DNA from: a virus
Virus record (IMG/VR): IMGVR_UViG_3300009164_002721
Span: 1 to 30,361 of that record
Length of the DNA stretch: 30,361 nt
Strand: one strand, 5' to 3'
Shown: piece after piece, positions 128 through 18,004 of the stretch
Numbering within the stretch: position 1 is the stretch's first letter
Layout: every line of letters starts with the position of its first letter
Notes under the pieces: model-generated
Told to the model about the DNA's origin: nothing
Seen by the model: only the letters and a program-made list of their open reading frames with translations
Databases searched by the model: none
Translations under genes and position numbers: made by a program

Positions 128-271
128 TTATTTATCCTGTGGAATCAATCCATACCAGTGTCTACGGCAAGTAAGCATATAACGTATATTATCACCCTTT
201 TTAGATAATATAGAAGCACCTTGCTTACAATCGGGTACCTTACATACTGGTTGTGTATTTGTTGGAGTCAT
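128..271 (-). CDS. 47-aa putative zinc-binding mini-protein
   Basis: This is a short frame of 47 codons starting at the ATG at 271-269, one base after the stop of the upstream curlin-repeat gene (TAA-T-ATG), so translation is probably coupled. The protein has two Cys/His pairs, C10-x4-C15 and C35-x2-H38, separated by about 20 residues. That pattern fits a single zinc finger or ribbon like the ones at the edge of HNH nucleases, but no catalytic HNH core is present. It lacks a signal peptide, unlike its upstream neighbours, so it should stay in the cytoplasm. The role is unknown; a small regulatory or nucleic-acid-binding protein is one possibility. Confidence 0.6.
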   Translation of the reverse strand: MTPTNTQPVCKVPDCKQGASILSKKGDNIRYMLTCRRHWYGLIPQDK

Positions 272-272
272 A

Positions 273-860
273 TTAAAATTTAGTATAGGACCAACCAGAG
301 CCGCAGGGATTACATTGAATATTCATACCACCTTGGTCAGGTGTTGTTGGATTAGTTTGATTAATAGTAACTCCTGCACCAATTGCACCATTGAATTGTA
401 AATCAAATCGTTTATCGGCACCTACTCCACCGGTTTGTGTAGATGTCACAGTGTTACCGTTGTTAGTTGCATTATTAGGATTGGTAATATTTAATATATG
501 GCTGCCGGCGCCTTGTTGTGTTAAATTAACGTTGTTGCCTGACCCGATCATATTTTGTATGGCTGCGGTATGATTACCAGTACCGTCTTGTTGAATGGAA
601 AATGTATTATTAATTCCAGATTTAAGTTCTATGCCTGCTGTTTTATTATTACCTTGCTGTGATATACTAAAGGTATTATAATCAACCGCACTACTTGTGC
701 CTGCTATAACATTGGCAGTATTGCCACTACCATCTTGAACTATTGTAGTTGTGTTGCCGCTGCCTATTTGATCAATGATAATAGTATTGTCAGCCGCTTT
801 TACATCAGTACATCTGAACCCAGCCATAGATATAATCATCGCAACTATTAGTAATTTCAT
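273..860 (-). CDS. Curlin-repeat (CsgA/CsgB-like) secreted protein, 195 aa
   Basis: The first ~23 residues form a Sec signal peptide (LLIVAMIISMAGF, then ...VKAAD). The mature part is built of imperfect repeats of the curlin type, Q-x-G-x-G-N-x5-Q, for example DQIGSGNTTTIVQDGSGN near the N-terminus, and further QQGNN, QQDGTGN and QQGAGS units. These Gln/Asn/Gly repeats are those that form the amyloid cross-beta core of CsgA and CsgB in curli. The C-terminal ~40 residues diverge and contain two cysteines (IQCNPC). The start codon overlaps the stop of the FecR-domain gene (TAATG). A CsgG/CsgF export pair is encoded upstream, so this is likely a substrate of that pore. Whether it nucleates (CsgB role) or forms the fibre (CsgA role) cannot be told. 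Confidence 0.8.
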   Translation of the reverse strand: MKLLIVAMIISMAGFRCTDVKAADNTIIIDQIGSGNTTTIVQDGSGNTANVIAGTSSAVDYNTFSISQQGNNKTAGIELKSGINNTFSIQQDGTGNHTAAIQNMIGSGNNVNLTQQGAGSHILNITNPNNATNNGNTVTSTQTGGVGADKRFDLQFNGAIGAGVTINQTNPTTPDQGGMNIQCNPCGSGWSYTKF

Positions 861-1987
861 TATTTTTGTATCAACGTAATAACTGTTGATCCTCCGCTGT
901 TAACACGATTCTTAATTGTGTCCATTGCACCTTGTGACATGTATATAGTAGTATTCTGGGTTGTAGGAGTCGTCACGCTCATCACATTACTGCCATCATC
1001 ACGGCTTAAAGTTATTTTTGGTTCTTGTATATCAACAATAATACCAGTCAATGCATTGTAGTCAGGTAGCAATCTATTACTAGTTGTGTTTAATAAGTTT
1101 AATTGTGCTTTCATTTGAGAATCTATTATGTCAAGTATGTTAGCAAGGAAATTTTGATCAAGAAAATTACGTGCTAATTTGTCTTGATATATTTCTTTTT
1201 CTTGTTGATCCAACGCATTAGCCAACCCTTGTTCTTTAAGAAAGTCCATATCTAAGGCATTTCTCATTTCAAGTTTTGTATTTGTCTTATGTTGGTCCTG
1301 ACCGTTTATTTCTTTAGGAGGTGCAACAATTAGCATATTGTTGATTGCTCCTTCACTAAGTTTTAAAATAACAGGTGGGCTTGGTGGCATATTACGACTC
1401 TCAACTCTAGTAGCCTGGAATGGTTTGGTTAATATTACTTGACCTGCATCGCTTTCTACAGTAATTTCGCCTGTCTTACAATTAGTTTCGATGTCACTAA
1501 TAGTTCTAGTGCTACGATCATTTGGACAGCTAGGTAATAAAATAATAGTACTACGACCCAACTCATCTACTGTGGCTGTAAAATCGGTACCCCGTACACT
1601 TACTGTAGCAGTCGGTGTGTTAACTGATACAGCGTTAGGATTATTGTGAGCGATTGCACCACTAGCATATCGAACAGTTCCTAATGCCATATTCAAAGCT
1701 ACTTTGCCAGTTTTACTTTTTGGGTCGTAAACAAAGTCATCAATTACTAGCTTTGAATTTTCGTTAACCTGCACCTTTGTTTCGTCAGCAAATGTTATTC
1801 CAACCTTGCCCTGGGTCGTCCGAACTGTGTCATTCATCTCCATACCTGTGCCTTTGGCACCAGTTAATGTTTGACTTTTACGTTGTATACTTGGAGCCGC
1901 ATTTAGTTGCTCAGTTATAGTTCCAATAGCCGCGTAGCTCTGCGATGTTGCTAACAGAGCTACGATACATATTAAAAACTTAAACAT
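860..1987 (-). CDS. FecR-domain exported protein, 375 aa
   Basis: A Sec signal peptide covers residues 1-19 (LICIVALLATSQSYA). Residues ~40-150 look like a FecR domain: a segment describing activation by a threshold (GMEMNDTVRTTQGKVGITF), ADETKVQVNENSKLVIDDF, and GTVRYASG followed by TPTATVSVRGTDFTATV. In FecR-family proteins this beta domain is periplasmic and usually part of sigma/anti-sigma signalling. Here there is no N-terminal cytoplasmic anti-sigma region and no membrane helix, so classical signalling is unlikely. The C-terminal half is Asp/Gln/Asn-rich and partly helical. The gene is sandwiched between two curlin-repeat genes with 1-base gap or overlap on each side, so the product probably works with the secreted repeat proteins, perhaps as an assembly or anchoring factor (inference). 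Confidence 0.75.
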   Translation of the reverse strand: MFKFLICIVALLATSQSYAAIGTITEQLNAAPSIQRKSQTLTGAKGTGMEMNDTVRTTQGKVGITFADETKVQVNENSKLVIDDFVYDPKSKTGKVALNMALGTVRYASGAIAHNNPNAVSVNTPTATVSVRGTDFTATVDELGRSTIILLPSCPNDRSTRTISDIETNCKTGEITVESDAGQVILTKPFQATRVESRNMPPSPPVILKLSEGAINNMLIVAPPKEINGQDQHKTNTKLEMRNALDMDFLKEQGLANALDQQEKEIYQDKLARNFLDQNFLANILDIIDSQMKAQLNLLNTTSNRLLPDYNALTGIIVDIQEPKITLSRDDGSNVMSVTTPTTQNTTIYMSQGAMDTIKNRVNSGGSTVITLIQK

Positions 1988-1988
1988 A

Positions 1989-2927
1989 TTACGGAGTACG
2001 TGTAGGTAACGTTAGTAACGGTACACTCATACCTTGACTAATATTAACACTATTACCACTACCGTTAATTTTTACGTTAGCAGATTGTCCACCGTATGTT
2101 GAGCCAGACCCTTGATTAATACCAACATAGTTTGTGCTTCCAGATATACCTAAGTTAGCAGTATTACCATCACCGTTCTGTACAATTTGGATCTGGTTAT
2201 CATTTCCATTTAATGTTGAACCGCTTGCATAACCACCAACACTAGCAGTATTGCCATATCCTGCTTGTAGGACATTAAACAGGTTTCCTGTTCCGCTAGT
2301 AGTGATACCTATATCGTTAGTACCTGTTCCTGATTGATCAAGTATTGCTTGGTTCGATCCGCCTGTTCCGCTGAACATAATACTAGCTGTGTTAGTATCG
2401 CCGCGCATTTTAGACTGTACATCGTCGCCTGGCCCAGCTGTAGTGACACTTAACGTACTTCCGCTGCCTTGCACATCTGCTTTGAAGTTTGATGTGCCGC
2501 CGGTCTGTTCAACCCCAATTATAATATTACTTGCGCTACCTTGACCGCTAGCATTAACATCAATAAGTGCCGTAGATCCTTGGCCTGTTACACTATATAC
2601 AATGTCGGCAGACCTGCCAGTTGCAACTGTAGCGTTTACACCCAATGCTAGGCTGTTACCAGATCCAACTTGCGACACAGCGATATTGGTGTTCATTGCT
2701 CCGATAGTTGCCGCATCTACTCCTCGGGTACCAGGTGCTCCATTTACCACGCCCTTAACTGTATTACCTGCACCGTCTTGAGTGATATTAATTACAGCAT
2801 TATCACCTGTTTGATCGATGTAGATACTATTGTCAACAGCATAGCCCAGTGACGACATTGCAGCCATCACAAGAATTGCAATTAATTTTCTCGACAAATT
2901 GCCAACGCCTTTTAGACTTTTTTTCAT
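1989..2927 (-). CDS. Curlin-repeat (CsgA-like) secreted protein, 312 aa
   Basis: The N-terminus is a long signal peptide (basic start, then LIAILVMAAMSSLGYA, with cleavage likely before VDNSIYID). The mature protein is very rich in Gly, Ser, Asn and Thr and carries curlin-type units at both ends: DQTGDNAVINITQDGAGN near the N-terminus and QNGDGNTANLGI, QAGYGNTASV and NISQG near the C-terminus. The middle is a more degenerate G/S/T repeat. At 312 residues it is about twice the size of E. coli CsgA. It is the first gene after a 219-base gap downstream of csgG and is coupled to the FecR-domain gene (TAA-T-ATG). The probable role is an amyloid-forming extracellular subunit exported through the phage CsgG pore. 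The start has only a weak GAAG ribosome binding site. Confidence 0.8.
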   Translation of the reverse strand: MKKSLKGVGNLSRKLIAILVMAAMSSLGYAVDNSIYIDQTGDNAVINITQDGAGNTVKGVVNGAPGTRGVDAATIGAMNTNIAVSQVGSGNSLALGVNATVATGRSADIVYSVTGQGSTALIDVNASGQGSASNIIIGVEQTGGTSNFKADVQGSGSTLSVTTAGPGDDVQSKMRGDTNTASIMFSGTGGSNQAILDQSGTGTNDIGITTSGTGNLFNVLQAGYGNTASVGGYASGSTLNGNDNQIQIVQNGDGNTANLGISGSTNYVGINQGSGSTYGGQSANVKINGSGNSVNISQGMSVPLLTLPTRTP

Positions 2928-3146
2928 GCTTCAAAGAATTAGGTTGGAACATCTTGTTTGTAATTGTTTACAAACGCTTAGTTTATTCCCTAACTCCGCT
3001 CCTTGGTCATTGACCATTAATGTGTTCTCGCTACGCTCTTTCCTTTCACTCTTATTTAAAACTATTTGATGCAAAGTTAAACTCTGCTGTTATTTTTCCG
3101 TTATATACTACTGTTAAAAAAATAACACTGTTAAAAAATTTACACC
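2928..3146 (-). promoter_or_regulatory. Leader region of the curlin/FecR genes: late-type promoter and hairpin
   Basis: This 219-base gap separates csgG from the first curlin-repeat gene. A TTTAAATA octamer (3060 to 3053) resembles the T4 late promoter and would give a leader of about 120 bases. Within that leader are a perfect 8-bp hairpin (2956-2975, arms GTTTGTAA/TTACAAAC) and a possible 28-codon frame (3017 to 2931) whose TGA stops three bases before the curlin ATG. The part nearer csgG contains two near-identical T-rich repeats (TTTTTTAACAGT) around a weak hairpin, which may act as a poor terminator. The gap would allow the substrates to be expressed separately from the pore genes. Confidence 0.4.
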
Positions 3147-4370
3147 TTACTTCGCTTCATCTAAATGCTCAGTGCGAATCCATCCACCTCGCATTTCACT
3201 ATCTGTTACTTTAAACCATCCTTCACTTCCTACTTGCCTTATGTCTACTACTGTGCCTTTCTTAAACAACCACTTCTTAATACTTGTATGATCTTGTTCT
3301 GAAAATAGGTACGTATCTTCTTTTAATTTACGTTGTCCAAATAATGATCTAGCCATCGGTTGAACTATTTTTGTTTCGACTGGTTTAACTTCTACTTTCT
3401 TTTCCTCTGCCTTTACTTCTGCGGGGGCAGGGGGTAAGGTTTCTGTTTTTGTTTCGGGCACGGCTTGCGGTTGAACCACGACATCTTTCTTCTCCTCTGC
3501 TTCTTTCTTAATCTCGCTACTGATTACAGGAGCTTTCTTTTCAACTATTGGCAGATGTATTGGTACTACAGGATCTGGTTTATATTCCCATATACCTTTC
3601 TTAACACCCTCTTTAATAAGTTCAACTACTGCCATTTCAACAGCGGCTTTAGTAGCATACGTTCCAGGCTCGTTAATTGTTAATCCTGCTTCTGCTTCAA
3701 ATGCCTGTGTTCCTTGATCAAAGAATTTCAATGCTGTCATGCTGTCCGCTGTTGATAAAATAGTTTTTTGTACAGTCACAGTAGCTAATACCTTACCTGT
3801 GTTAACACTAACTGCACGTAGGCTAACTGTTACAGTATCCTGACTCCATTGTGTTTGTTTGCCAATACCAAAGATACGCATACCTGCGCCACCACTGGTA
3901 ATAGTAGAATCATATCCTACTAGTCCACCTTCCATAATAATACCGGCAAATTGCATAGGCATTAATGGCTTAGCATCTTTACCTTCATATGCTTCGCGCA
4001 TCTGTTTAATAATAGTGCGTTCTTTAACTAGATTATCAATTCCTACACGTTCTACTACATCAAACCATTGCCCTCGTCCAACACCTTGTAGTGCTTGTAT
4101 TAAGAATGTTTCAGCACCCTGTGTAACTGCGGTTGACAAACTAGCCACGTTAGCCTGTGGGCGACGTTGTCCTGTCTTGTCTGCAAAACTATACACTGCT
4201 ACGCTAACTGGTTTACCAGCTGATGGCGCAGGAATATTATCAAATTCTTTTTTGACTCCGGCACGTTGGGTTGTTAGAGTAGGGTCAACTTCATTCAAAC
4301 CGGTGCTTTGGATGACTGCACATCCACTTAACATTAAAACTATAGTAAGTGTTAGTAAAGTCTTTTTCAT
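3147..4370 (-). CDS. csgG: CsgG-family outer-membrane curli secretion pore with C-terminal SH3-like domain
   Basis: CsgG forms the nonameric outer-membrane channel that exports curli subunits. Residues 1-17 are a lipoprotein signal peptide with lipobox LSGC. The CsgG core spans ~18-270 and aligns by eye with E. coli CsgG: TGQ then LSTAV, GIDNLVKER, GLVGYDSTITSGGAG, FGIGKQTQ, VSVNTGKVLA and KGIWEYKPD. E. coli CsgG is 277 residues; this one has 407. The extra part is a Pro/Lys/Glu/Val-rich linker (~270-341) and a domain at ~345-405 (GTVVDIRQVGSEGWFKV, GGWIRTEHL) that looks like a bacterial SH3 domain, which could touch peptidoglycan. The pore-constriction residues of E. coli (Tyr51, Asn55, Phe56) are not conserved; the Phe position is Leu78. 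The start follows the csgF stop by one base (TAA-C-ATG). Confidence 0.9.
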   Translation of the reverse strand: MKKTLLTLTIVLMLSGCAVIQSTGLNEVDPTLTTQRAGVKKEFDNIPAPSAGKPVSVAVYSFADKTGQRRPQANVASLSTAVTQGAETFLIQALQGVGRGQWFDVVERVGIDNLVKERTIIKQMREAYEGKDAKPLMPMQFAGIIMEGGLVGYDSTITSGGAGMRIFGIGKQTQWSQDTVTVSLRAVSVNTGKVLATVTVQKTILSTADSMTALKFFDQGTQAFEAEAGLTINEPGTYATKAAVEMAVVELIKEGVKKGIWEYKPDPVVPIHLPIVEKKAPVISSEIKKEAEEKKDVVVQPQAVPETKTETLPPAPAEVKAEEKKVEVKPVETKIVQPMARSLFGQRKLKEDTYLFSEQDHTSIKKWLFKKGTVVDIRQVGSEGWFKVTDSEMRGGWIRTEHLDEAK

Positions 4371-4371
4371 G

Positions 4372-4818
4372 TTATTGGAACTGGAATTGGCTTAGTGGTA
4401 TTACTACCGTTGTTTGGTTTCCGGTAACATCAGTTACAGTCATCGTAACCGCAGTTCCGTCTTTACTCCAGAATATAGTGTTGCCTTCAAAGTTTAATGT
4501 TCCGCTAGTTGAGCCGCCATTGGCAAACATAGCAGTGGCTAGATTTTGACTAATTTGTGCGTAGATACGACTTTCTAAGTTGTTTAAAAACTTTGCCAAA
4601 TTTGTATTTGCCTTGTCGGCTTTGGCTTTATCTAATGCCGCTTGTACATCCTTTTCCACTTGTACTCTACGAGTAAACTCTTGGTTCTCAATTGTAAGTA
4701 CGTGAGAGCTATAACCTACACCGTTAAAAGATGGGCTTTTGAATTGATAGTCGCCAATAGGCGCTGCCGTTAAGTATGCCGGCAGAAATAGCAGTAATGT
4801 AACTACTAATTTTGACAT
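4372..4818 (-). CDS. csgF: CsgF-family curli assembly factor
   Basis: CsgF is secreted, inserts its N-terminal peptide into the CsgG barrel to form a second constriction, and links the pore to the nucleator. Residues 1-18 are a Sec signal peptide (LVVTLLLFLPAYLTA). The mature N-terminus IGDYQFKSPSFNG matches the E. coli CsgF pattern F-Q-F-R-N-P-N-F-G-G, the pore-inserting part. A helical middle (FLNNLESRIYAQISQNLA) and a C-terminal beta region (VTMTVTDVTGNQTTVVIPLSQF) also match the family. The length of 148 aa is close to the usual ~138. It is the first gene of the unit; a GTTAAATA late-type promoter and a GGGAG ribosome binding site lie just upstream. CsgE, the periplasmic adaptor, is not in the window. 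Confidence 0.88.
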   Translation of the reverse strand: MSKLVVTLLLFLPAYLTAAPIGDYQFKSPSFNGVGYSSHVLTIENQEFTRRVQVEKDVQAALDKAKADKANTNLAKFLNNLESRIYAQISQNLATAMFANGGSTSGTLNFEGNTIFWSKDGTAVTMTVTDVTGNQTTVVIPLSQFQFQ

Positions 4819-4843: not shown

Positions 4844-4909
4844 AATATTTAACCCCGTGTGAGGCGAAATTAAGTTAGTGTTTAATTAACTACGTAGATT
4901 ACTAACTGA

Positions 4910-6461: not shown

Positions 6462-6469
6462 TATTTATA
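6462..6469 (-). promoter_or_regulatory. Perfect T4-type late promoter TATAAATA, nearly leaderless
   Basis: A perfect TATAAATA octamer lies across the stop codon of pcyX. The next gene's ATG begins 8 bases downstream, so a transcript starting 5-6 bases after the octamer would carry at most two or three bases before the ATG. No ribosome binding site is present. Confidence 0.6.
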
Positions 6470-7145
6470 CTATTTCGGGGAACAGGCATTCCTGTATGAA
6501 ATGTGTAACATCGTCCTCGCTCAGCCCTAAACTAACCATTACACGCGGTGTATGTGGGTTACATTTCTGATTTTGTGCGTAGTAATTCTGTGCGTCAGTA
6601 GTATTTTCAGCAGTATTGTTAGTTTCAGCTACTGTGCTTAGATAGTGTGCTACTGTAGTTCGTGCTAGATTTGTTATTTGTTCTAGTTCTGTTTCATCTT
6701 GTACATTGGCCGCGGCCACCATACTACCGCTAAAAATGTTAGTGGCCCACTCGGGTAAAGCACGTTCTCTGCGCCACTCTAGTTTGCTAACTTCATCGTG
6801 AAACCATTGCATCATCGGATGATCAGCATCGCCTGCTTTTGAGTAATCATGGAAACAGCCAGTAATCTTATTCTTACCAGCTATAACGTCAAAGCCGTAA
6901 ATTGGAGCAGGGTTGTGAATATGTGGAAAGATACAACAGTGCATCATCCATAGTCCTTTGCTTTCACGGGCATCTACAACATCAACGTGAGCACGACGAT
7001 AAGCGTCACTAGTCCATACACGATTAACCCAACCGGGCTGATTAAACCGATCCATGCCGGGTTCAAAGACTTCATCGCCGGTTGCATCAAAATTTTCTTC
7101 TAGTAAATGTTGTATACCTATTAAGGTATCCCAGACTTTACTCAT
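6465..7145 (-). CDS. pcyX: Ferredoxin-dependent bilin reductase, PcyX-like
   Basis: Bilin reductases of this family reduce biliverdin IXalpha with electrons from ferredoxin. The protein aligns by eye along its length with cyanobacterial PcyA: LWMMHCCIFPHIHNPAPIYG with PcyA's ILHCVMFP...MFGCDL, RALPEW with RELPEW, NYYAQNQK with NYCSKQQQ, and a C-terminal FIQECLFPEIV with YMTTVLFDLPE. The PcyA catalytic residues Glu76, His88 and Asp105 correspond to Asp55, His69 and Asp86 here. A Glu-to-Asp change at the first site and a marine phage setting next to a heme oxygenase fit PcyX, described from uncultured ocean viruses as making phycoerythrobilin. At 226 aa it is slightly shorter than PcyA. It overlaps the heme oxygenase gene by 8 bases. 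The PcyX assignment rests on memory of the family and needs a phylogeny. Confidence 0.85.
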   Translation of the reverse strand: MSKVWDTLIGIQHLLEENFDATGDEVFEPGMDRFNQPGWVNRVWTSDAYRRAHVDVVDARESKGLWMMHCCIFPHIHNPAPIYGFDVIAGKNKITGCFHDYSKAGDADHPMMQWFHDEVSKLEWRRERALPEWATNIFSGSMVAAANVQDETELEQITNLARTTVAHYLSTVAETNNTAENTTDAQNYYAQNQKCNPHTPRVMVSLGLSEDDVTHFIQECLFPEIV

Positions 7146-7692
7146 CTTTGTATTCTACTAGAGTCATCATCTCTTTGAAAAACTCTGCGGCAAATTCGAA
7201 ACATACTTTTGCTTCGTCGGCCATGTCATCACTAATTCTCTCACGAATAAGTGTCTTTAGTGTGTCAGCATCTTCAAACTTATACATACGACCTTCACCT
7301 GGTACCTTTTTAGCGATCATTTGGCCGCCTGCAAGATCACCCATATGTCGTACATAGATATGCGCCATTAGTTTTTTCGGATCATCTTTAATGCTCATGA
7401 TATGATCCATGTATCGTTTGACTACTGGGAGGATTTGTGGGTCTTCTTCATCGTCGCCCCATAGTTCTATAAAGTCTGCAAGAATGTGGGGTGCTCTACG
7501 GACATCTGGCATTCCGGATAATAGTCCAGGATGCATCATTGCACAAACTTCTACTAGTTCGTATTGTGGATGCTGATTTTTTAGATAGACAGCATACAGT
7601 TTAGGATTGATAGTTCCTGAAAAAAGAATTTTAACAAATTCCTGACGTTCAGCATTAGTATGTGCTTCTTTGGTTAGATCACGTAAACTCAT
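7138..7692 (-). CDS. Biliverdin-producing heme oxygenase
   Basis: Heme oxygenase opens heme to biliverdin IXalpha, CO and iron, using ferredoxin or another reductant. The N-terminus LRDLTKEAHTNAE contains the proximal heme ligand His11 in the classic TKEAH-T-x-A-E setting. The distal helix motif GDLAGGQ at 118-124 matches GDLSGGQ of HO-1. The length of 184 aa suits a compact single-domain enzyme. It lies between clpS (ATGA overlap) and pcyX (8-base overlap), so the two pigment enzymes are probably made in step and biliverdin passes directly to the reductase. No chromophore lyase or phytochrome apoprotein is visible in the window, so the fate of the bilin is open. Confidence 0.9.
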   Translation of the reverse strand: MSLRDLTKEAHTNAERQEFVKILFSGTINPKLYAVYLKNQHPQYELVEVCAMMHPGLLSGMPDVRRAPHILADFIELWGDDEEDPQILPVVKRYMDHIMSIKDDPKKLMAHIYVRHMGDLAGGQMIAKKVPGEGRMYKFEDADTLKTLIRERISDDMADEAKVCFEFAAEFFKEMMTLVEYKDE

Positions 7693-7994
7693 TCTTCTTC
7701 CAATTTAATTTGTAATGGGTGCCCGTTAGTACGTGCAAGGTTTGTTGCTTCAACTGCTTTTGCTTCAGCTATTTCAAAACTATAGATTCCAGCTATGCCG
7801 GAGCCAGTTTCGTGTACTTGAATCATGATATCCTTAGCAGTTGCATCTGTGTGTTTGAATGTTTCAATCAGTAAGGCAATTACAAATTCCATAGGGGTAA
7901 AATCATCGTTAAGAAGAATAACCTTCCAACGCTTTGGTTCTGAAACAGTTACTTTGATCTTTTCTTCTAATTGGATATCTGTTGTCGGCATCAT
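7689..7994 (-). CDS. clpS: ClpS, N-degron adaptor of the ClpAP protease
   Basis: ClpS binds proteins with bulky hydrophobic N-terminal residues and hands them to ClpA/ClpP, and it blocks other ClpA substrates. The core is canonical: WKVILLNDDFTPMEFV carries the N-degron pocket residues (Asn-Asp-Asp, Thr, Met), followed by the conserved His in MIQVHETGSG and a C-terminal NGHPLQIKLEEE. I prefer the ATG at 7994 (MMPTTDIQLEEK), which is preceded by AAGAAAG. An upstream in-frame ATG at 8030 would add 12 residues encoded by a GC-rich hairpin, and it sits exactly at the predicted start of a late-type transcript, so a leaderless 113-aa form remains possible. Start overlap with heme oxygenase (ATGA) suggests coupling. 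A phage ClpS could redirect host proteolysis after infection. Confidence 0.9.
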   Translation of the reverse strand: MMPTTDIQLEEKIKVTVSEPKRWKVILLNDDFTPMEFVIALLIETFKHTDATAKDIMIQVHETGSGIAGIYSFEIAEAKAVEATNLARTNGHPLQIKLEEE

Positions 7995-8010
7995 TTTCTT
8001 TCTTAGTGTT

Positions 8011-8028
8011 GGGGGAGTTGCCTCCCCC
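8011..8028 (-). promoter_or_regulatory. GC-rich hairpin with GCAA tetraloop in front of clpS
   Basis: The minus strand forms a perfect 7-bp stem, GGGGGAG/CTCCCCC, closed by a GNRA-type GCAA loop, which is very stable in an AT-rich genome. It starts two bases after the predicted start (8030) of a transcript from the ATTAAATA octamer at 8043-8036. No T-tract follows, so it is unlikely to be a terminator. It probably protects the mRNA 5' end, or the 3' end of hsp20 mRNA. Confidence 0.6.
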
Positions 8029-8034
8029 ATGTGT

Positions 8035-8457
8035 TTATTTAATTGTTATCTGACGTGGTTTTAATGCTTCTGGAACCATACGTTCAATCTTAATGATCAA
8101 CATACCGTCCTTAACTTCAGCATCTCGAATTTCCATATATTCGGCTAGAGTATATGCTTGTTCAAAATCACGGCTAGCAAGTCCACGATGAAGATATTCT
8201 TTACCATCTGCATCTACAGTTGTTTGAATACCCCGAACAATTAATTGATCTTGATCTACTTCAACTGTAATTTCGTCTTTGCTAAAACCAGCTACTGCAA
8301 TTTCAATAGCATAATCTCTATCACTATACTTCACAATGTTATGTGGAGGATAGTTGCTGTTGTTTACACGAGCATTAAAGATATGATCGAAACCTACTAG
8401 TGCTCTACTTAAATTGGCAAGAGCTGCCGCGTCTATAGTTCTTAGTTGCATTGTCAT
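8035..8457 (-). CDS. hsp20: Small heat-shock protein Hsp20/IbpA family
   Basis: Small heat-shock proteins hold unfolding proteins in a refoldable state for DnaK. The alpha-crystallin domain runs from ~37 to ~130: YPPHNIVKYSDRDYAIEIAVAGF, then ITVEVDQDQLIVRG, YLHRGLASRDFEQAYTLAEY and the end of the domain DGMLIIKIERMVPE. The A-x-x-x-n-G-v-L-class signature is replaced by DAEVKDGMLIIKI, as in IbpA-like proteins. The length of 140 aa is normal. The start is supported by AAGGAG eight bases upstream. Transcription probably starts from a perfect sigma70 promoter inside the end of dnaK, and the leader begins with a hairpin. Confidence 0.93.
   Translation of the reverse strand: MTMQLRTIDAAALANLSRALVGFDHIFNARVNNSNYPPHNIVKYSDRDYAIEIAVAGFSKDEITVEVDQDQLIVRGIQTTVDADGKEYLHRGLASRDFEQAYTLAEYMEIRDAEVKDGMLIIKIERMVPEALKPRQITIK
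8036..8043 (-). promoter_or_regulatory. Late-type promoter octamer ATTAAATA upstream of clpS
   Basis: ATTAAATA overlaps the 3' end of hsp20. The spacing to the hairpin at 8028-8011 and to the upstream ATG at 8030 (5 bases) matches the arrangement of the other late-type promoters in the window. Confidence 0.4.
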
Positions 8458-8486
8458 AATTTTCTCCTTATATTAAGCAAGAACTT

Positions 8487-8513
8487 TGTAGGGCCCTTTT
8501 AAGGCGCCCTACA
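8487..8513 (-). promoter_or_regulatory. 5'-terminal hairpin of the hsp20 mRNA
   Basis: The arms TGTAGGGC/GCCCTACA give an 8-bp stem, with further CCTT/AAGG pairing in the loop. The predicted transcription start (8512) falls on the first bases of the stem, so the RNA would begin with a closed hairpin. It is followed by TTCTTGCTTAATATAAGGAG, nearly identical to the sequence after the dnaK leader hairpin (TTCTTGCTTAATCAAAGGAG). The TTCTT could pair weakly with the GGAGA ribosome binding site. Confidence 0.6.
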
Positions 8514-8524
8514 TGTTTATTATA

Positions 8525-10429
<1,905 letters not shown>

Positions 10430-10458
10430 AATGATCTCCTTTGATTAAGCAAGAAAAA

Positions 10459-10483
10459 TGTAAAACCCTTACGGCGTTTCACA
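10459..10483 (-). promoter_or_regulatory. 5'-terminal hairpin of the dnaK mRNA
   Basis: The minus-strand arms TGTGAAAC/GTTTTACA form an 8-bp stem with one G-U pair. Its first bases coincide with the start (about 10482) predicted from the TATAAATA octamer. Loop (GCCGTAAGG versus GCCTTAAAAGG) and downstream sequence resemble those of the hsp20 leader, so the two leaders appear related. Confidence 0.55.
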
Positions 10484-10487
10484 AATT

Positions 10488-10495
10488 TATTTATA
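10488..10495 (-). promoter_or_regulatory. Perfect T4-type late promoter TATAAATA upstream of dnaK
   Basis: TATAAATA is followed by AATTT and then the leader hairpin; it overlaps the last codons of the MazG-like gene. No -35 box is visible at the right distance, as expected for T4-type late promoters. Confidence 0.65.
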
Positions 10496-10781
10496 CCTGT
10501 TCGGTGTTATTTTTAAAAATATTGGACCAAATTTTAAGTTTTTCACGCTTGGCTTTTGCGGCCGCTTCGATATTAGTCCAGCTAACTACATCTAGTTCTT
10601 GCAGGATTTCAATCATAGCATACAAATCGCCGAGCTCTTCTTCCAAGTGTTCCCTATTAGTTTTGGGTTTACCTGGCTTAAGATTATCTAGTCCAAAGCG
10701 GCTGATTTTACTTACCGCTTGTATTACTTCAGCACATTCTTCTTGGAGAATATCCATTACTTCTTTAGTCTGACTGTCCAT
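10491..10781 (-). CDS. MazG-like nucleotide pyrophosphohydrolase
   Basis: The 96-residue protein carries the all-alpha NTP pyrophosphatase (MazG/dUTPase-like) signature: EECAEVIQAVSKI supplies the E-x2-E metal pair and EELGDLYAMIE supplies the E-x-x-D pair, with Leu/Ile-rich helices between. Enzymes of this fold hydrolyse (d)NTPs to (d)NMPs; phage versions are thought to modulate nucleotide pools or ppGpp, though the substrate cannot be predicted here. I chose the ATG at 10781 (MDSQTKEV), preceded by AAAGG, because the longer frame lacks a ribosome binding site and its extra 37 residues lie inside the exonuclease gene. The stop falls inside the dnaK promoter octamer. Confidence 0.75.
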   Translation of the reverse strand: MDSQTKEVMDILQEECAEVIQAVSKISRFGLDNLKPGKPKTNREHLEEELGDLYAMIEILQELDVVSWTNIEAAAKAKREKLKIWSNIFKNNTEQV

Positions 10782-10785
10782 TTTA

Positions 10786-11367
10786 TTACCTTTGATGTGC
10801 AAATGGTGCAATGTAGTCACCGTTTTTTGTTGTACTGGTACGCAAGGTATTGTACACGTTTTGAATACCAACTGCTTGATTGTATGCGTCATGTAATGCG
10901 TGATGGGCTGTTACGGGCGGACGTTTAGGATCTATACCGATATCGAATGCTGTACGCACATCACGAATTTGCCAAAACTGCCAAGGAACTGCTTTGCCAA
11001 TCTTTTTAAACACATGCTCACAGATCATAATGTCAAATACACTGCCATTGGACCAAACACGTTTTGCACCCCAACAGAACTTGTACAATTGGATAAATGC
11101 ATCCGTAATTGGAATACGATTTTTCTCTCCAAATGCTTCGTCTTGTGCTTCTTTGCTTTGATTGGCCCACCAAGCGATGGTGTCATCGTTAGTTACTAGG
11201 CCTATGTTGTGGCAACTGTCGAGATCCACTCTAACATAAAAGCTATCCATTGCTGGTTCCTCTATGTCTTTTCCAAACGGATCAAACTTAACAGCACCTA
11301 TTGTAAGAATAGCCGCATCGGTTGATGTTGCCAGCGTTTCTAAATCTATCATAATGTCAGTATTCAT
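10786..11367 (-). CDS. DEDDh 3'-5' exonuclease (Rv2179c/DexA-like)
   Basis: The four acidic residues and the histidine of the DEDDh exonuclease family are visible: MIDLETL (D8, E10), the GSVFD segment (D112), and HHALHDA (H155, D160). The fold region and 193-aa length fit the Rv2179c-like exoribonuclease group that also includes T4 DexA-type phage proteins. It degrades RNA or DNA from the 3' end; the substrate is not predictable. A perfect sigma70 promoter ends 6 bases before the ATG at 11367, making the ATG's A the predicted first transcribed base, and there is no ribosome binding site. A start at the second Met (11352) would give a 15-base leader, also without a binding site. Confidence 0.85.
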   Translation of the reverse strand: MNTDIMIDLETLATSTDAAILTIGAVKFDPFGKDIEEPAMDSFYVRVDLDSCHNIGLVTNDDTIAWWANQSKEAQDEAFGEKNRIPITDAFIQLYKFCWGAKRVWSNGSVFDIMICEHVFKKIGKAVPWQFWQIRDVRTAFDIGIDPKRPPVTAHHALHDAYNQAVGIQNVYNTLRTSTTKNGDYIAPFAHQR

Positions 11368-11373
11368 ACAAAC

Positions 11374-11402
11374 ATTATAGCAGACTTAATCGTAAATGTC
11401 AA
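11374..11402 (-). promoter_or_regulatory. Perfect sigma70 promoter giving a leaderless exonuclease mRNA
   Basis: TTGACA (11402-11397), 17-base spacer, TATAAT (11379-11374). Six bases (GTTTGT) separate the -10 box from the exonuclease ATG, which is the usual distance from -10 box to start site, so the mRNA should begin with AUG. The -35 box overlaps the stop region of the S21 gene. Confidence 0.85.
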
Positions 11403-11632
11403 TACAATTTTTTAGGTAATTGTTCTTTTTCGAGCTTCTTTTTCCAACGGGCTTTGGCAGCGCCTTTGGCTTTCTTCCTGGCTGTAGTAGGTTTTTCGTA
11501 AAACTCTTTGGCACGCAAATCTTCAAGGATCTTTGCATCCTCAATCTTACGTTTAAATCGTCTTAGAGCTTGGTTGATATTCTCACCATCCCTTACGGTA
11601 ATTCCGGTCCCTTTATTCTTCTGGGGTATCAT
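11399..11632 (-). CDS. rpsU: Ribosomal protein bS21
   Basis: S21 sits on the 30S platform near the 3' end of 16S rRNA and helps mRNA binding during initiation. The family pattern is clear: [19 protein letters not shown], then [17 protein letters not shown], followed by a basic tail AKARWKKKL. In E. coli S21 the matching segments are FDVALRRFKRS and [14 protein letters not shown]. With the ATG at 11632 ([10 protein letters not shown]) the protein has 77 residues against the usual ~71. AGGAGG lies 12 bases upstream. The gene overlaps the 3' end of the preceding hypothetical by 20 bases. Phage S21 genes are known from marine phages; replacement of host S21 on ribosomes is the likely action. Confidence 0.93.
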
Positions 11633-12026
11633 CGTCGTTGTCTTCCTCCTGTTTAATTTGTTCGACAATCCAATCTAAATCATATATTCTGTTTCTACTT
11701 ATCAATTGATAAGGAGTCGTTTCATCTTTTGTTAGATAGTGTGCATTTGGATGGGTTAGCATCATTGATACAAATTTATGTGTCATTGGATCACAATTAT
11801 CCACATCGATAATTACTACATCGACTTGTTGTAGTACACTTAACATCCAACCAATATCGTGATCATCGTTATCAAAAATGAAAACATTTAGATCATCAAT
11901 ACTATGGCTTAAAATTGTTTGAAATTGTTCTTTAACATAGTTGCTAGGTTTAACCAACAAATAACTTAAATTTAAATTAAACAGTTTATCCGGCGGAGTT
12001 ATTAGAGTTATTTTTCCTAAGTTCAT
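11613..12026 (-). CDS. Hypothetical protein, 137 aa, acidic C-terminus
   Basis: No family is recognised. From the ATG at 12026 the sequence starts [17 protein letters not shown] and alternates hydrophobic strands ([20 protein letters not shown]) with helices, suggesting an alpha/beta fold. The [11 protein letters not shown] strand is rich in Asp, and the C-terminus is strongly acidic ([12 protein letters not shown]). A TTG at 12041 would add five residues. The start overlaps the end of a -1 reading frame that extends the preceding membrane protein, and its own end overlaps the S21 start. This position suggests translational coupling to S21 but says little about its role. Confidence 0.6.
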
Positions 12027-12312
12027 GTATTCGTTCTTCAAAGTAAGATATTTTTTCTAGTGGATAATCACTAAATCTTGGACCATGTTTTTTTGTTTCT
12101 TCAACAAAAGCATACAGCTCAGGTTCAGTGTTATCATTAACTGTAAAGTCTTCAAACTTATGATCTGCATAATCTTTATAAAGCTGATCAATAGGATTAA
12201 GACCGTGCAGTTTGCCCCATATACTATCGGCAGTCTGTTCAGCATTCTGAACATAGCCTATTCCCTGTTCTTGAGTTGTATCTGTCCCTGTTCGTTCTTG
12301 ATCATGTAAGTC
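11986..12312 (-). CDS. C-terminal extension of the 12258-13373 membrane protein in the -1 frame, no own start codon
   Basis: This open frame of 108 codons (from GAC at 12312 to TAA at 11986) has no ATG, GTG or TTG near its beginning, yet it looks like real protein: GYVQNAEQTADSIWGKL, then LYKDYADHKFEDFTVND and [17 protein letters not shown]. It is the -1 frame relative to the upstream 371-aa gene and overlaps its last codons. A run of nine A's at 12321-12313, read as TCA-AAA-AAA-AAG, is a good slippery site at the junction. Either a programmed -1 frameshift makes a ~462-aa protein, or a single-base indel has split the gene. One extra A near the zero-frame stop (GGGAATAGG) would also join the frames as KNRE-I-GYVQNAEQ. 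Confidence 0.6.
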   Translation of the reverse strand, partial: DLHDQERTGTDTTQEQGIGYVQNAEQTADSIWGKLHGLNPIDQLYKDYADHKFEDFTVNDNTEPELYAFVEETKKHGPRFSDYPLEKISYFEERIHELRKNNSNNSAG

Positions 12313-13373
12313 TTTTTTTTTGATTCTTCGGTTTCTGGAAGGTCTGCTTCCAAAGTAACTTCTGTGCCTTCGTTAGTTATATATGTTTCGCCTTTAGCTA
12401 CACGCTCTTCAACTGTGGAATCTGGTTGAGCGACCGCTTTCTCAGCCTCTTCAATCATTTTATTCCATTTATCAAGTTCGTTGATAGGTTCTTCTTCAAC
12501 TTCTGTAACAGTAGGTTCGACGTTAATTACATCGTTTGTTTCTTCGTTAGGAATGTGTTCTGTAGGTTGCGGCACAAAGTCATCGATGCTTGCAGGCTTA
12601 ACAGGTTCTGAGTCTTCACGTTTCCAACCAAATGTCATTTGCGCGGCTAGTAACATAATAACTGCTAAGGGATCAAACACAACTACAATGAGTACAATAA
12701 TCCATGTTACTGCTTTTTCTAACATGTTCTCATCTGCGCCATGTTCACCGTAAATGAACTTGGCAATATATTTGATTGGTCCTACTTCAGCTTCGACCTT
12801 GCGTACTTCTGCCGCGATTGGAGAACGCTCTTCGCTAACGGTGGCAATAACCTTCTGTTCGGATGCGATCTCAGACTGAAGCCTTGCACGTTCCTTTTGC
12901 TGACTACGTCTAATGGCAACAGCTTTTTCGGCACCTTTTTCATCACTGCTTCGGCCCATGACTTGGTCCACAGCTTCATCCATTTGTTTAAGAGCTTTGC
13001 GGTTTGCATCTATATTATCTCTGCTTGTTTTGATCTTTTCATCGTAGATAGCAATTTTACTTTGTACATCGCCTGACACTAAGTTTTGGTCGTTGTGTGC
13101 TTTGGAAAGGAATCCAAAGATACCCATTGAGGTAATGAGCATTAACACCATTACTGCTAGTATCATATAATACTTCATGAAACGTGGAGCACGTTCCCAA
13201 TTAGCCTTAAGCCAGCTGGCACAAACTAGTTTACCAACTTCAAGGGCAGAGCCCATGATGATGATTGGAATGGCCGCCGCTGAAAAGATAGCGGTCAAAC
13301 CTACTACAGAATAGTAGATTGCGACCGCCGAAATTGTTAAACCAGTGAGTAGTAGTAGATACGCTAATATCAT
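12258..13373 (-). CDS. Membrane protein with four transmembrane helices and a coiled coil, 371 aa
   Basis: Hydrophobic segments lie at ~1-22, ~26-48, ~68-90 and ~222-247. Between the third and fourth is a highly charged region (~100-200), probably a coiled coil outside or inside the membrane (KIKTSRDNIDANRKALKQMD, RRSQQKERARLQSEIASE). The C-terminal third is acidic and Pro/Glu-rich. I recall similar proteins, starting with an ILAYLLLLTGLTISAVAIYY-like helix, from marine T4-like phages, but I know no function. In the zero frame it ends ...GQIQLKNRE, but an unstarted -1 frame continues with protein-like sequence (see 11986-12312). The gene begins 15 bases after the stop of the upstream virion-type gene, with a poorly placed GGA as ribosome binding site. 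Confidence 0.75.
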   Translation of the reverse strand: MILAYLLLLTGLTISAVAIYYSVVGLTAIFSAAAIPIIIMGSALEVGKLVCASWLKANWERAPRFMKYYMILAVMVLMLITSMGIFGFLSKAHNDQNLVSGDVQSKIAIYDEKIKTSRDNIDANRKALKQMDEAVDQVMGRSSDEKGAEKAVAIRRSQQKERARLQSEIASEQKVIATVSEERSPIAAEVRKVEAEVGPIKYIAKFIYGEHGADENMLEKAVTWIIVLIVVVFDPLAVIMLLAAQMTFGWKREDSEPVKPASIDDFVPQPTEHIPNEETNDVINVEPTVTEVEEEPINELDKWNKMIEEAEKAVAQPDSTVEERVAKGETYITNEGTEVTLEADLPETEESKKKTYMIKNEQGQIQLKNRE

Positions 13374-14526: not shown

Positions 14527-15231
14527 TTAATCATAAAAAATGTGTCGACCAATTTTAGCAACTGGTTTCTTGTGCCACCCTGGTTGTACATAGTCCCCGT
14601 GAAAATAAAGGGCTTTCTTCAGATCCGGAAGGCGAAAACCTTCCAGCAGTACCTTTTTAGCTACTTCCATACTTTCTGTGTACATTGGGCCGTTCATCGG
14701 CTTTAACACTGATGCTTTATTGCAATACCAACTGAATTGGCACATTACTTTTTCGTACACTATATTCTTCTGGTAGACTACTTGACAGATGTCGCTCGGA
14801 AAAGCGCCAGATTCTGTACGATTGATTGTAACCTGAGCAACTGCTACTTTACCTTCAAAAGGTTCGCCGCCGGCTTCATGGTATATATTACGAGCTAGAC
14901 AATCTAATTGTGTTTGTCTCATTTGTGCTGTAATTGGACTCGATACTTCTCGAGCTTCTTTAAGTCTTTCGAACTTACTATTTACTGCTGTCTGTACTGC
15001 TATAACTACTGCCACTAAAACTAGGCAGTTTAAAACTATTTTGATAATGCGTATCATTTTTGTCTCCTTTACGCTGGATGAGGTATCGCTAGTACCATCA
15101 TTATTAATTAATGGGCGGTTTCCGTTTCTCCTTAAGTTAGCCGTTTTTCTGATTGCCCCTAAACCCTTAGGGGACAATATATAGTTATCCTCTGTGTGTG
15201 CTGGTAAAACACTATTATTATAAACAGGCAT
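14527..15231 (-). CDS. SleB-type cell-wall hydrolase (endolysin) with signal anchor and two in-frame starts
   Basis: Residues ~108-230 match the Hydrolase_2/SleB family: ARNIYHEAGGEPFEGKVAVA resembles ARVIYGESRGEPFEGQVAIG in SleB, with Glu119 as the likely catalytic acid. SleB enzymes are lytic transglycosylases that cut the glycan strands of peptidoglycan. A weakly hydrophobic segment at ~60-82 (IRIIKIVLNCLVLVAVVIAV) could be a signal anchor, allowing Sec export without cleavage (SAR endolysin model). There are two in-frame starts: the ATG at 15231 with GAGGAGAT, and the ATG at 15057 (MIRIIKIV) with AAAGGAGA at ideal spacing, giving 234- and 176-aa forms. The longer one adds a basic, Asn-rich cytoplasmic tail. 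Confidence 0.85.
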   Translation of the reverse strand: MPVYNNSVLPAHTEDNYILSPKGLGAIRKTANLRRNGNRPLINNDGTSDTSSSVKETKMIRIIKIVLNCLVLVAVVIAVQTAVNSKFERLKEAREVSSPITAQMRQTQLDCLARNIYHEAGGEPFEGKVAVAQVTINRTESGAFPSDICQVVYQKNIVYEKVMCQFSWYCNKASVLKPMNGPMYTESMEVAKKVLLEGFRLPDLKKALYFHGDYVQPGWHKKPVAKIGRHIFYD

Positions 15232-15688: not shown

Positions 15689-16021
15689 CTATTGTTTTAC
15701 TCGAAAACTTTCGCCGCATCCGCATCGATCTGACTCGTTTGGATTAATGAAATCAAATCCCTCGTTGAGTCCGTTGCGAACCCAATCCATTGTTAGCCCG
15801 TTTAAATATCCTAGGCTTTTAGCATCTACTAACAGTATAAAGTCTTTGTGCCCAAAGTTAGTTACACCCACTTCGGCTTGGTATTCGTCAACGTATTCTA
15901 ATGTGTAGGCTAATCCACTACATCCGGTTGTGCGTACCCCTAAACGTATACCTACACCTCGACCACGCTTTTCTAGATTTTGTTTAATCTTTTTATATGC
16001 TGTGTCTGTTACGGTAATCAT
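15689..16021 (-). CDS. iscA: A-type Fe-S carrier protein (IscA/ErpA/HesB family)
   Basis: A-type carriers bind Fe-S clusters or iron and pass them to target enzymes. The three conserved cysteines are present: Cys34 in TTGCSGLAYTLEY and Cys100/Cys102 in DRCGCGESF. The spacing and length (110 aa) match E. coli IscA (107 aa) and ErpA. The signature F-x-F-x-N-P-N is also present (GFDFINPN). The start at 16021 lies inside the end of iscU (29-base overlap), so the two are translated together. Separating IscA from ErpA or SufA by eye is not possible. Candidate phage clients in this window are few (ferredoxin-dependent reactions, host ferredoxin). Confidence 0.9.
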   Translation of the reverse strand: MITVTDTAYKKIKQNLEKRGRGVGIRLGVRTTGCSGLAYTLEYVDEYQAEVGVTNFGHKDFILLVDAKSLGYLNGLTMDWVRNGLNEGFDFINPNESDRCGCGESFRVKQ

Positions 16022-16376
16022 TTACGGCCGCCTTGATAGCATCTTCTGCCAATATACTACAGTGTATCTTAACTGGGGGTAATGCTAGTTCTTCGGCAAT
16101 TTGGCTGTTTTTAAGATTAAGAGCATCGTCAATGTGCATACCCTTAACCCACTCTGTAACCAAGCTCGAACTGGCGATTGCTGAACCGCATCCATATGTC
16201 TTGAAACGAGCATCTCTAATAATACCATCCTCGTCTACCTTTATTTGTAGTTTCATTACATCGCCACATGCAGGAGCACCGACCATACCAGTACCCACAG
16301 TAGGATCATCTTTTTCAAATGATCCTACATTACGGGGGTTTTCGTAGTGGTCGAGTACTTTATCTGAATATGCCAT
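15993..16376 (-). CDS. iscU: IscU Fe-S cluster scaffold
   Basis: IscU is where IscS-derived sulfur and iron are built into [2Fe-2S] clusters. The whole 127-aa protein tracks E. coli IscU: AYSDKVLDHYENPRNVGSF, GAPACGDVMKLQIKV, FKTYGCGSAIASSSLVTEW and LPPVKIHCSILAEDAIKAA. The ligands Cys37, Asp39, Cys63, His105 and Cys106 are intact. The LPPVK motif (99-103), the Hsp70 (HscA) binding site, is unchanged. No IscS, HscA or HscB is visible. The ATG is fixed by homology, yet it has no ribosome binding site and lies in the arm of a hairpin that contains a TATAAATA promoter. Confidence 0.95.
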   Translation of the reverse strand: MAYSDKVLDHYENPRNVGSFEKDDPTVGTGMVGAPACGDVMKLQIKVDEDGIIRDARFKTYGCGSAIASSSLVTEWVKGMHIDDALNLKNSQIAEELALPPVKIHCSILAEDAIKAAVNDYRNRHSI

Positions 16377-17482: not shown

Positions 17483-17772
17483 TATACTAATTTAATCCCT
17501 GTAGTATTTTGAATATATGTATCCGAAGCATCTTTGCCAGACGGTGCAAGTACCATAATAGTCGCACGTGAAATCTGTATATTTGCGTCTGGATCTGTGG
17601 TGAACAAGAACGGAACAAGTGCTATTCCTTTTTGTCCAGCGGTTAGCACTAATGGCTTACTCACAGTAATTGCCATTGGATTTTCTTCAACTAGTTTAGC
17701 GACAATCTCTTCGCCCGCAGTTGTTTTAATTGTTACTACTTCACCTGGTGTAATACCTTTATTGATTATCAT
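17482..17772 (-). CDS. Small beta-rich hypothetical protein, 96 aa (Sm-like fold suspected)
   Basis: The N-terminal half, GEVVTIKTTAGEEIVAKLVEENPMAITVSKPLVL, reads like the five-strand Sm/Hfq-type barrel (V-x-I-x-T-x-x-G-x-x-I-x-G/A...). The rest is a second set of strands (GIALVPFLF, ISRATIMVLA). No RNA-binding Sm2 motif can be confirmed, so the Sm link is only a structural impression. AAGGAT precedes the ATG at 17772, which lies inside the end of the glutaredoxin gene (14-base overlap), and its stop overlaps the next start. It therefore belongs to the nrdA-nrdB-grx-96aa-292aa transcription unit. Confidence 0.5.
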   Translation of the reverse strand: MIINKGITPGEVVTIKTTAGEEIVAKLVEENPMAITVSKPLVLTAGQKGIALVPFLFTTDPDANIQISRATIMVLAPSGKDASDTYIQNTTGIKLV

Positions 17773-18004
17773 GTTTATCCTTTTCGAAATGTTTCTTCAA
17801 CTCTTGGAAGCCGCCTATTAATTTATCGTCTAAAAATATTTGCGGTACAGTTCTGGCATTAGGTACGGCTTCCATTAGCTGTTCTTTAGTCCAATCTTTA
17901 CTTACATTACGTTCTTCGTAGTCAATGCCTTTCATTTTGAGTAGACCTTTTGCTTGATCGCAAAATGGACAGGCATTTTTACTCCACACTATTGCTGTTG
18001 TCAT
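17759..18004 (-). CDS. Glutaredoxin, dithiol CPFC type
   Basis: The 81-aa protein has the redox motif SKNACPFCDQAKGLL near the N-terminus, the cis-Pro segment ARTVPQIFLDDKLIGG for glutathione binding and the GGFQEL helix start. This is a complete class I glutaredoxin. Placed 17 bases after nrdB, it is the likely electron donor for the phage ribonucleotide reductase, as in T4 (NrdC) and E. coli (NrdH, Grx1). AAGGAA lies before the ATG. A TATAAT with a poor -35 (TAGACT, 18-base spacing) overlaps the nrdB stop and might add transcription. Confidence 0.92.
   Translation of the reverse strand: MTTAIVWSKNACPFCDQAKGLLKMKGIDYEERNVSKDWTKEQLMEAVPNARTVPQIFLDDKLIGGFQELKKHFEKDKHDNQ

Follow-up and report, generated by a model that had tools for sequence, protein, structure and literature searches.

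A phage-encoded curli-type (type VIII) secretion module with two conserved curlin substrates and a secreted FecR-domain protein that probably builds an adhesive fibre

The viral sequence IMGVR_UViG_3300009164_002721, analysed here over its whole 30,361 nucleotides (the window), carries near one end a block of five genes that encode homologues of the curli proteins CsgF and CsgG, two curlin-repeat proteins and a secreted FecR-domain protein. The block has the components that characterize type VIII (curli) secretion, namely a lipoprotein pore with a CsgG domain, CsgF, and curlin-repeat substrates bearing signal segments. We propose that it is a phage-encoded type VIII module through which the infected cell probably secretes an adhesive curli-like fibre. 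Judged from substitution patterns among relatives, all five genes are maintained as functional proteins under purifying selection.

Curli genes in phages have been described before. Pelagimyophages were reported in 2020 to carry csgF, csgG, two hypothetical genes and a curli-associated protein, for which “sibling capture” was suggested (PMC7029224). In 2022, a module of the form csgF-csgG-csgA/B-FecR-(csgA/B)-(adenylate cyclase), conserved in order and expressed in metatranscriptomes, was described in podo- and myoviral pelagiphages (PMC9599517), and the phage Melnitz was said to lack csgA/B, a role in lysis being proposed for its pore (PMC9004378). The Melnitz GenBank record (MZ577097) annotates two curlin-repeat proteins, FecR and cyclase in the matching order, contrary to the “pore only” description, and phage HTVC008M (KC465899) carries a corresponding block. 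Curli substrates in phages are thus already known, and the novelty that a first, sequence-only reading of the window had seen in substrates lying beside the pore does not stand. Published accounts disagree on whether CsgGF in phages is a pore repurposed for lysis or genuinely exports fibres. The co-conserved substrates in a third, distant phage lineage and the domain swaps in the second curlin described below favour the exporter, and point to this curlin as the carrier of the adhesive specificity; a CsgG-SH3b fusion and an anchor-like FecR protein add concrete, testable parts. If true, viruses encode cell-surface adhesive amyloids that alter the aggregation of infected cells, which bears on how phages spread and how genes are exchanged in dilute waters.

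All five genes lie on the minus strand and would be transcribed in the order csgF, csgG, curlin-1, FecR, curlin-2 (Table 1). The sequence-only reading had described them as clustered, mostly with 1-base gaps or overlaps, and the open reading frame (ORF) coordinates and Pfam profiles agree: one base separates csgF from csgG and curlin-1 from FecR, and FecR overlaps curlin-2 by one base, the exception being a gap of 219 bases between csgG and curlin-1. The profile searches it had asked for, with the curlin repeat, CsgG, CsgF and FecR, placed all five proteins at or above the Pfam cut-offs, curlin-1 exactly at it. Each protein opens with a hydrophobic signal segment, which in CsgG includes the lipobox LSGC, and none has a transmembrane-like stretch beyond it. 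Neither curlin matched a PHROG family. The start of the block, formerly placed at 128, is corrected to 273, as 128-271 holds only a 47-amino-acid ORF of no Pfam family. Among the roughly 35 ORFs scanned in the window, which is a fragment, there was no match to CsgE or CsgC, in agreement with that reading, and no CsgD was found in the window. The window ends 272 bases past curlin-2, and the position at which relatives carry an adenylate cyclase falls beyond its end.

Relatives were gathered with CsgG as the sole bait, which avoids bias towards curlins, and per-gene counts take only those of the 33 distinct viral relatives whose contig extends far enough. Gene order is fixed among them: csgF precedes csgG in 33 of 33, and curlin-1 (29/29), FecR (23/23) and curlin-2 (22/22) follow. 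Relatives with csgGF and without curlins were sought and none was found; nor was csgGF seen beside unrelated genes in place of the repeat genes, the arrangement that the sequence-only reading had set against itself. A protein with a CHASE2 sensor and a nucleotide cyclase domain is encoded in 17 of 21 relatives, directly after curlin-2 in three (L001, L042, L002) and after three genes in another (L047). For csgF, the csgG core, both curlins and FecR, the ratio of nonsynonymous to synonymous substitution rates (dN/dS, Nei-Gojobori) was 0.04-0.31 in the computable comparisons, and 0.17-0.45 for the C-terminal extension of CsgG; dS is near saturation, and these values are rough. Spurious or chance ORFs are rejected on the strength of the purifying selection on all five genes. 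One relative (L011, 9803-11836) encodes an additional secreted protein after curlin-2, with an autotransporter beta-domain (2.6e-14) that is unusual for a phage; L054 and L075 have similar proteins, and the size of the group is about 640-680 amino acids.

The two curlins differ in how they vary. Strict Q-x-G-x-[GDN]-N motifs number four in curlin-1 and three in curlin-2, where 0.10 are expected, and this count was reached in none of 5000 shuffles. Curlin-1 ranges from 210 to 327 amino acids across relatives and in the window has a hydrophobic periodicity of 11 residues. Its AlphaFold2 model, built from 30 sequences (mean predicted local distance difference test score, pLDDT, 80; predicted template modelling score 0.78), shows about 20 short strands that follow one another in a solenoid-like series, most of them spaced by 11-16 residues, and so the fold prediction came out as the sequence-only reading had expected. 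This spacing agrees with the 11-residue periodicity, and the model fits a curlin-like solenoid. Curlin-2 ranges from 186 to 852 amino acids, and its long forms bear additional N-terminal domains, either PA14 (L055, 1.2e-10; L077, 7.7e-14; the cultured phage HTVC008M, AGE60352, 2.7e-6) or F5/8 type C (L045, 2.9e-12; L018, 2.4e-10). Two close relatives, L052 and L055, are nearly identical in csgG (97.7%), curlin-1 (98.8%), FecR (98.0%) and the curlin half of curlin-2 (96.5%), and only 34.6% identical in the N-terminal domain of curlin-2 (L052 4038-5423; L055 3327-4637). Since this domain stands at 34.6% while the rest of the module is about 98% identical, the difference reads as an N-terminal domain swap, a pattern typical of binding subunits. 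PA14 or discoidin domains get no mention in PMC9599517, and their presence on the curlin-2 of some relatives, together with the swap, appears to be new.

The FecR-domain protein consists of a signal peptide, the FecR domain (residues 53-146), a helical region and a C-terminal strand segment. It has only the N-terminal signal segment, without a later transmembrane segment, and neither the adjacent genes nor the scanned window ORFs include a FecI-type sigma gene. A role as iron or sigma regulator was considered and is unlikely for a secreted protein without membrane anchor or sigma gene. Its AlphaFold2 model matched a single PDB entry below 0.001, the PupR signalling domain (PupR CSSD; E 5e-4), and next PDB 5ix9, a “cell surface anchoring domain” (62 residues, root-mean-square deviation 1.2 A, 31% identity, E 0.013). 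Large alphaproteobacterial proteins that resemble adhesins carry homologues of the FecR domain close to their N-terminus (E 1e-31 to 1e-38), and the three such ORFs that were examined, of 1152-5659 amino acids, bear RTX or cadherin-like repeats. The phage protein shares this FecR-domain region with them and with 5ix9 but stands alone, at 375 amino acids, predicted to be Sec-exported and without RTX repeats. With modest confidence, a secreted anchor or assembly factor is a better fit than an iron regulator, and the evidence for secretion and an anchor-like character of this “FecR regulator” appears to be new.

The pore itself sets the window apart from the modules described so far. A profile search of the PDB matched it best to CsgG structures (E 1.1e-69), those of E. 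coli among them, and CsgG core and CsgF domains are what the window has in common with the enterobacterial CsgBAC/CsgDEFG system; the window differs in that no CsgD, CsgE or CsgC was found, in its longer, divergent substrates, in the added FecR and in the extended CsgG. About 140 residues follow the conserved core (residues about 1-264), comprising a variable, low-complexity linker rich in K, E and P and then an SH3b-like domain at residues about 348-404. A hidden Markov model (HMM) built here for this tail domain found it in 30 of 78 phage CsgG ORFs, near-duplicates counted, and in 0 of 80 bacterial CsgG loci; its SH3 match lies above the Pfam cut-off in the relatives L042 (3.4e-9), L002 (1.4e-8), L040 (1.2e-6) and L048 (1e-5). 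In E. coli, CsgG has its C-terminus in the periplasm, and it is therefore plausible that the SH3b tail tethers the pore to peptidoglycan in the window's lineage. A CsgG that carries a linker and an SH3b domain appears to be new.

In a CsgG tree of 95 rows, the window falls in a clade of 30 phage sequences (support 100/100), apart from the pelagimyophages and from a podoviral-type group. The closest long contig, G001 (265,680 bases; DnaK 93%, tail-spike-like protein 58%), shares with the window the run hsp20-clpS-haem oxygenase-bilin reductase-514-amino-acid ORF-csg block. Its terminase is T4-type, nearest to those of the jumbo phages PA5oct-like (52%) and Sinorhizobium Phosso (51%), and we infer from this relative that the window derives from a jumbo T4-like phage. 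The existence of a separate clade of 30 CsgGs linked to such phages also appears to be new. The modules of HTVC008M and Melnitz resemble the window in their five genes, order and strand, in the curlins that flank FecR, and in the cyclase downstream in most relatives. In contrast, the window CsgG is only 42-44% identical to theirs and belongs to its own clade, with linker and SH3b domain, in the jumbo-phage lineage. The neighbours also differ from those of pelagiphage modules: where the podoviral version has a histidine kinase upstream, none was found in the window, which carries instead an uncharacterized 514-amino-acid ORF and genes for bilin reductase, haem oxygenase, ClpS and Hsp20.

Bacterial counterparts of the module are few. 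Alphaproteobacterial curli operons share the order CsgF-CsgG-curlin and the presence of several curlin proteins, but FecR (by HMM) occurs in only 6 of the 80 best bacterial CsgG loci, and those six CsgGs fall in the phage-type clan. This clan (support 100/99) unites all phage-type CsgGs with eight sequences from bacterial assemblies. Of the six loci only one, L085 from Hyphomonas sp. TMED17, is found on a long contig, flanked by genes usual for a chromosome (705 kb; csgF-csgG-curlin-FecR-CHASE2 cyclase at 6477-12500), which contrasts with the statement that FecR and cyclase are foreign to bacterial curli operons (PMC9599517). The idea that the FecR/cyclase arrangement is a phage-only invention was tested, and this chromosome-like contig carries it. 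Within the family to which the Hyphomonas locus belongs, just one of 105 genomes has a full-length phage-type FecR, and across 385 sampled members of the class that genome is again the only one. Given the long branches in the tree, the locus may be a rare origin in cells or an acquisition from phage. Phage-type csg modules also occur, mostly on short contigs, in bacterial metagenome-assembled genomes (L081, L082, L083, L084, L086, L089), in bins that include Rhodobacteraceae, Pirellulales, Pelagibacter and Flavobacteriaceae; these short-contig “bacterial” modules are probably misbinned phage contigs.

The module is likely to be expressed late in infection, since elements resembling T4-type late promoters precede ORFs in the window and csgF itself. 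The core NATAAATA occurs 10 times on the coding strand of the window and 0 times on the other, and nine of the ten elements lie 12-80 nucleotides upstream of an ORF start. TAAATAC was found in 24 of 54 regions upstream of csgF in relatives, against a background of 1.1%. A hairpin around this element is striking in some relatives and not above chance in the window.

From gene content, order, conservation, selection and domain architecture, we infer a course for secretion, fibre formation, anchoring and purpose. During infection, the five proteins would be exported by Sec; CsgG would form a lipoprotein pore in the outer membrane, capped by CsgF and, in the window's lineage, probably held to peptidoglycan by its SH3b tail. 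Through this pore would pass curlin-1, the main subunit of the fibre, and curlin-2, a further subunit that would act as nucleator or tip. The FecR-domain protein, likewise secreted, would have an accessory role, most likely in anchoring or assembly. The infected cell would end up bearing an adhesive fibre of curli type, which would most likely keep or attract other cells, or shield the cell surface, and may also attach cells to particles. The suggestion of the sequence-only reading that an amyloid-type or adhesive protein is really secreted is the best reading, in view of the conserved substrates, the purifying selection, the solenoid-like curlin-1 and the PA14 and F5/8 type C fusions. A fuller picture, for phages of the window's group and related ones, we offer only tentatively, as a possibility short of probable: a virus-built adhesive amyloid fibre with curlin-1 as shaft, curlin-2 as exchangeable glycan-binding or nucleating subunit (with PA14, F5/8 type C and further domains swapped between near-identical phages), a FecR anchor and, in the jumbo-phage clade, an SH3b-tethered CsgG, making the infected cell a sticky trap or shield.

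Several observations weigh against these proposals. Melnitz-infected cultures showed no clumping (PMC9004378). CsgE is absent from the scanned window ORFs, although alphaproteobacterial curli systems are likewise said to lack it, and neither CsgE nor CsgC is taken to define the system outside Gammaproteobacteria (PMC9599517). AlphaFold2 readily builds solenoids from repeat sequences, and a Foldseek search of the curlin-1 model against the PDB gave no significant match (best E 0.03; most of the top-ranking entries were beta-helix proteins). The FecR model is poor outside the FecR domain (mean pLDDT 68), and for this reason confidence in an anchor role is modest. The window's own SH3 match lies below the Pfam cut-off, and its own curlin-2 is a short-type protein that lacks a binding domain, so that adhesion by this phage would rest on the fibre itself.

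Among other explanations, superinfection exclusion survives best. Here the fibre coat would mainly mask receptors or trap competing phages rather than gather hosts. One of the options raised in PMC9599517, it is equally compatible with a conserved secreted fibre, and the ligand of an adhesive domain could be polysaccharide on the surface of the infected cell itself; we nonetheless regard it as doubtful, for the swappable PA14 and F5/8 type C domains in some relatives look more like a response to changing external ligands. That CsgGF is a pinholin- or secretin-like outer-membrane hole that times lysis and aids virion release, with the curlins incidental or a plug, was put forward for Melnitz from gene position and structure (PMC9004378), and no holin was identified in the window. 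This is very improbable. Curlin and FecR genes under purifying selection follow csgGF in every long-enough relative and a bare pore needs neither, the window has its own cell-wall hydrolase (14527-15231, PF07486) far from the module, and the CsgG pore is far too small for virions (PMC7029224). An exporter is favoured over a bare pore because both substrates are fully co-conserved and the second one swaps domains, and nothing specific speaks for a gated pore plugged by its own substrate, which the sequence-only reading had also entertained. Hardly better placed is an ungated CsgG pore that admits large nutrients or siderophores, with FecR as an iron-linked regulator (PMC7029224, PMC9599517): the periplasmic gate CsgE is absent and Fe-S and haem genes lie nearby, yet CsgF and two conserved curlin genes are left unexplained, and FecR appears wholly secreted, with no sigma partner found in the scanned ORFs. 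Least credible is a curlin or FecR coat on virions that aids attachment to cells or particles. Late-promoter-like elements before the module in about half of relatives may make its products coincide with virion assembly, but virions assemble in the cytoplasm, from which the Sec-type signals on all parts would direct them away, and no structural genes adjoin the module.

Table 1. Features of the curli-type block and promoter-like elements in the window
Feature	Position	Strand	Remarks
csgF homologue	4372..4818	-	148 amino acids, signal peptide; PF10614 E 9.4e-13 over whole length; phrog_35372 2e-60; predicted pore-associated extracellular chaperone
csgG homologue	3147..4370	-	407-amino-acid lipoprotein; PF03783 E 2.8e-46; lipobox PF08139; predicted outer-membrane secretion pore
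CsgG C-terminal extension, K/E/P linker and SH3b-like domain	3147..3576	-	SH3_4 E 0.0012, below cut-off
curlin-1 (CUR1)	1989..2927	-	312 amino acids; signal peptide and curlin-type repeats; PF07012 4e-4; probable major fibre subunit
FecR-domain protein, secreted	860..1987	-	375 amino acids; PF04773 E 1.3e-11
curlin-2 (CUR2), short type	273..860	-	195 amino acids; signal peptide and curlin repeats; PF07012 E 2.4e-9; NCBIfam CsgB-like 1.6e-8
TTAAATA, like T4-type late promoter	4846..4852	-	34 nucleotides upstream of csgF; putative function
NATAAATA elements	e.g. 6469, 10495, 14106, 16388, 23627, 25731	-	likely T4-type late promoters

Scans of the window for Rfam families and for tRNAs returned no match. 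Just upstream of the csg block, a haem oxygenase and a PcyA/PcyX-like bilin reductase (6465-7692, minus strand) lie beside ClpS and Hsp20, and two relatives (L018, L021) have two bilin reductases. Haem oxygenase/ferredoxin-dependent bilin reductase cassettes are known in aquatic phages (PMC11480375), where curli and ClpS are not mentioned. An IscU/NifU-type scaffold, a PF01521 Fe-S biogenesis protein and a glutaredoxin (15689-16376 and 17759-18004, minus strand), near ribonucleotide reductase genes, are a phage Fe-S and redox set. A 371-amino-acid ORF (12258-13373, minus strand) with a sub-threshold tetraspanin-like match is possibly a multi-pass membrane protein, and a tail-spike-like protein (21680-23599, minus strand) combines a pectate-lyase-like domain with an Mtd_N match that falls narrowly short of the Pfam cut-off.

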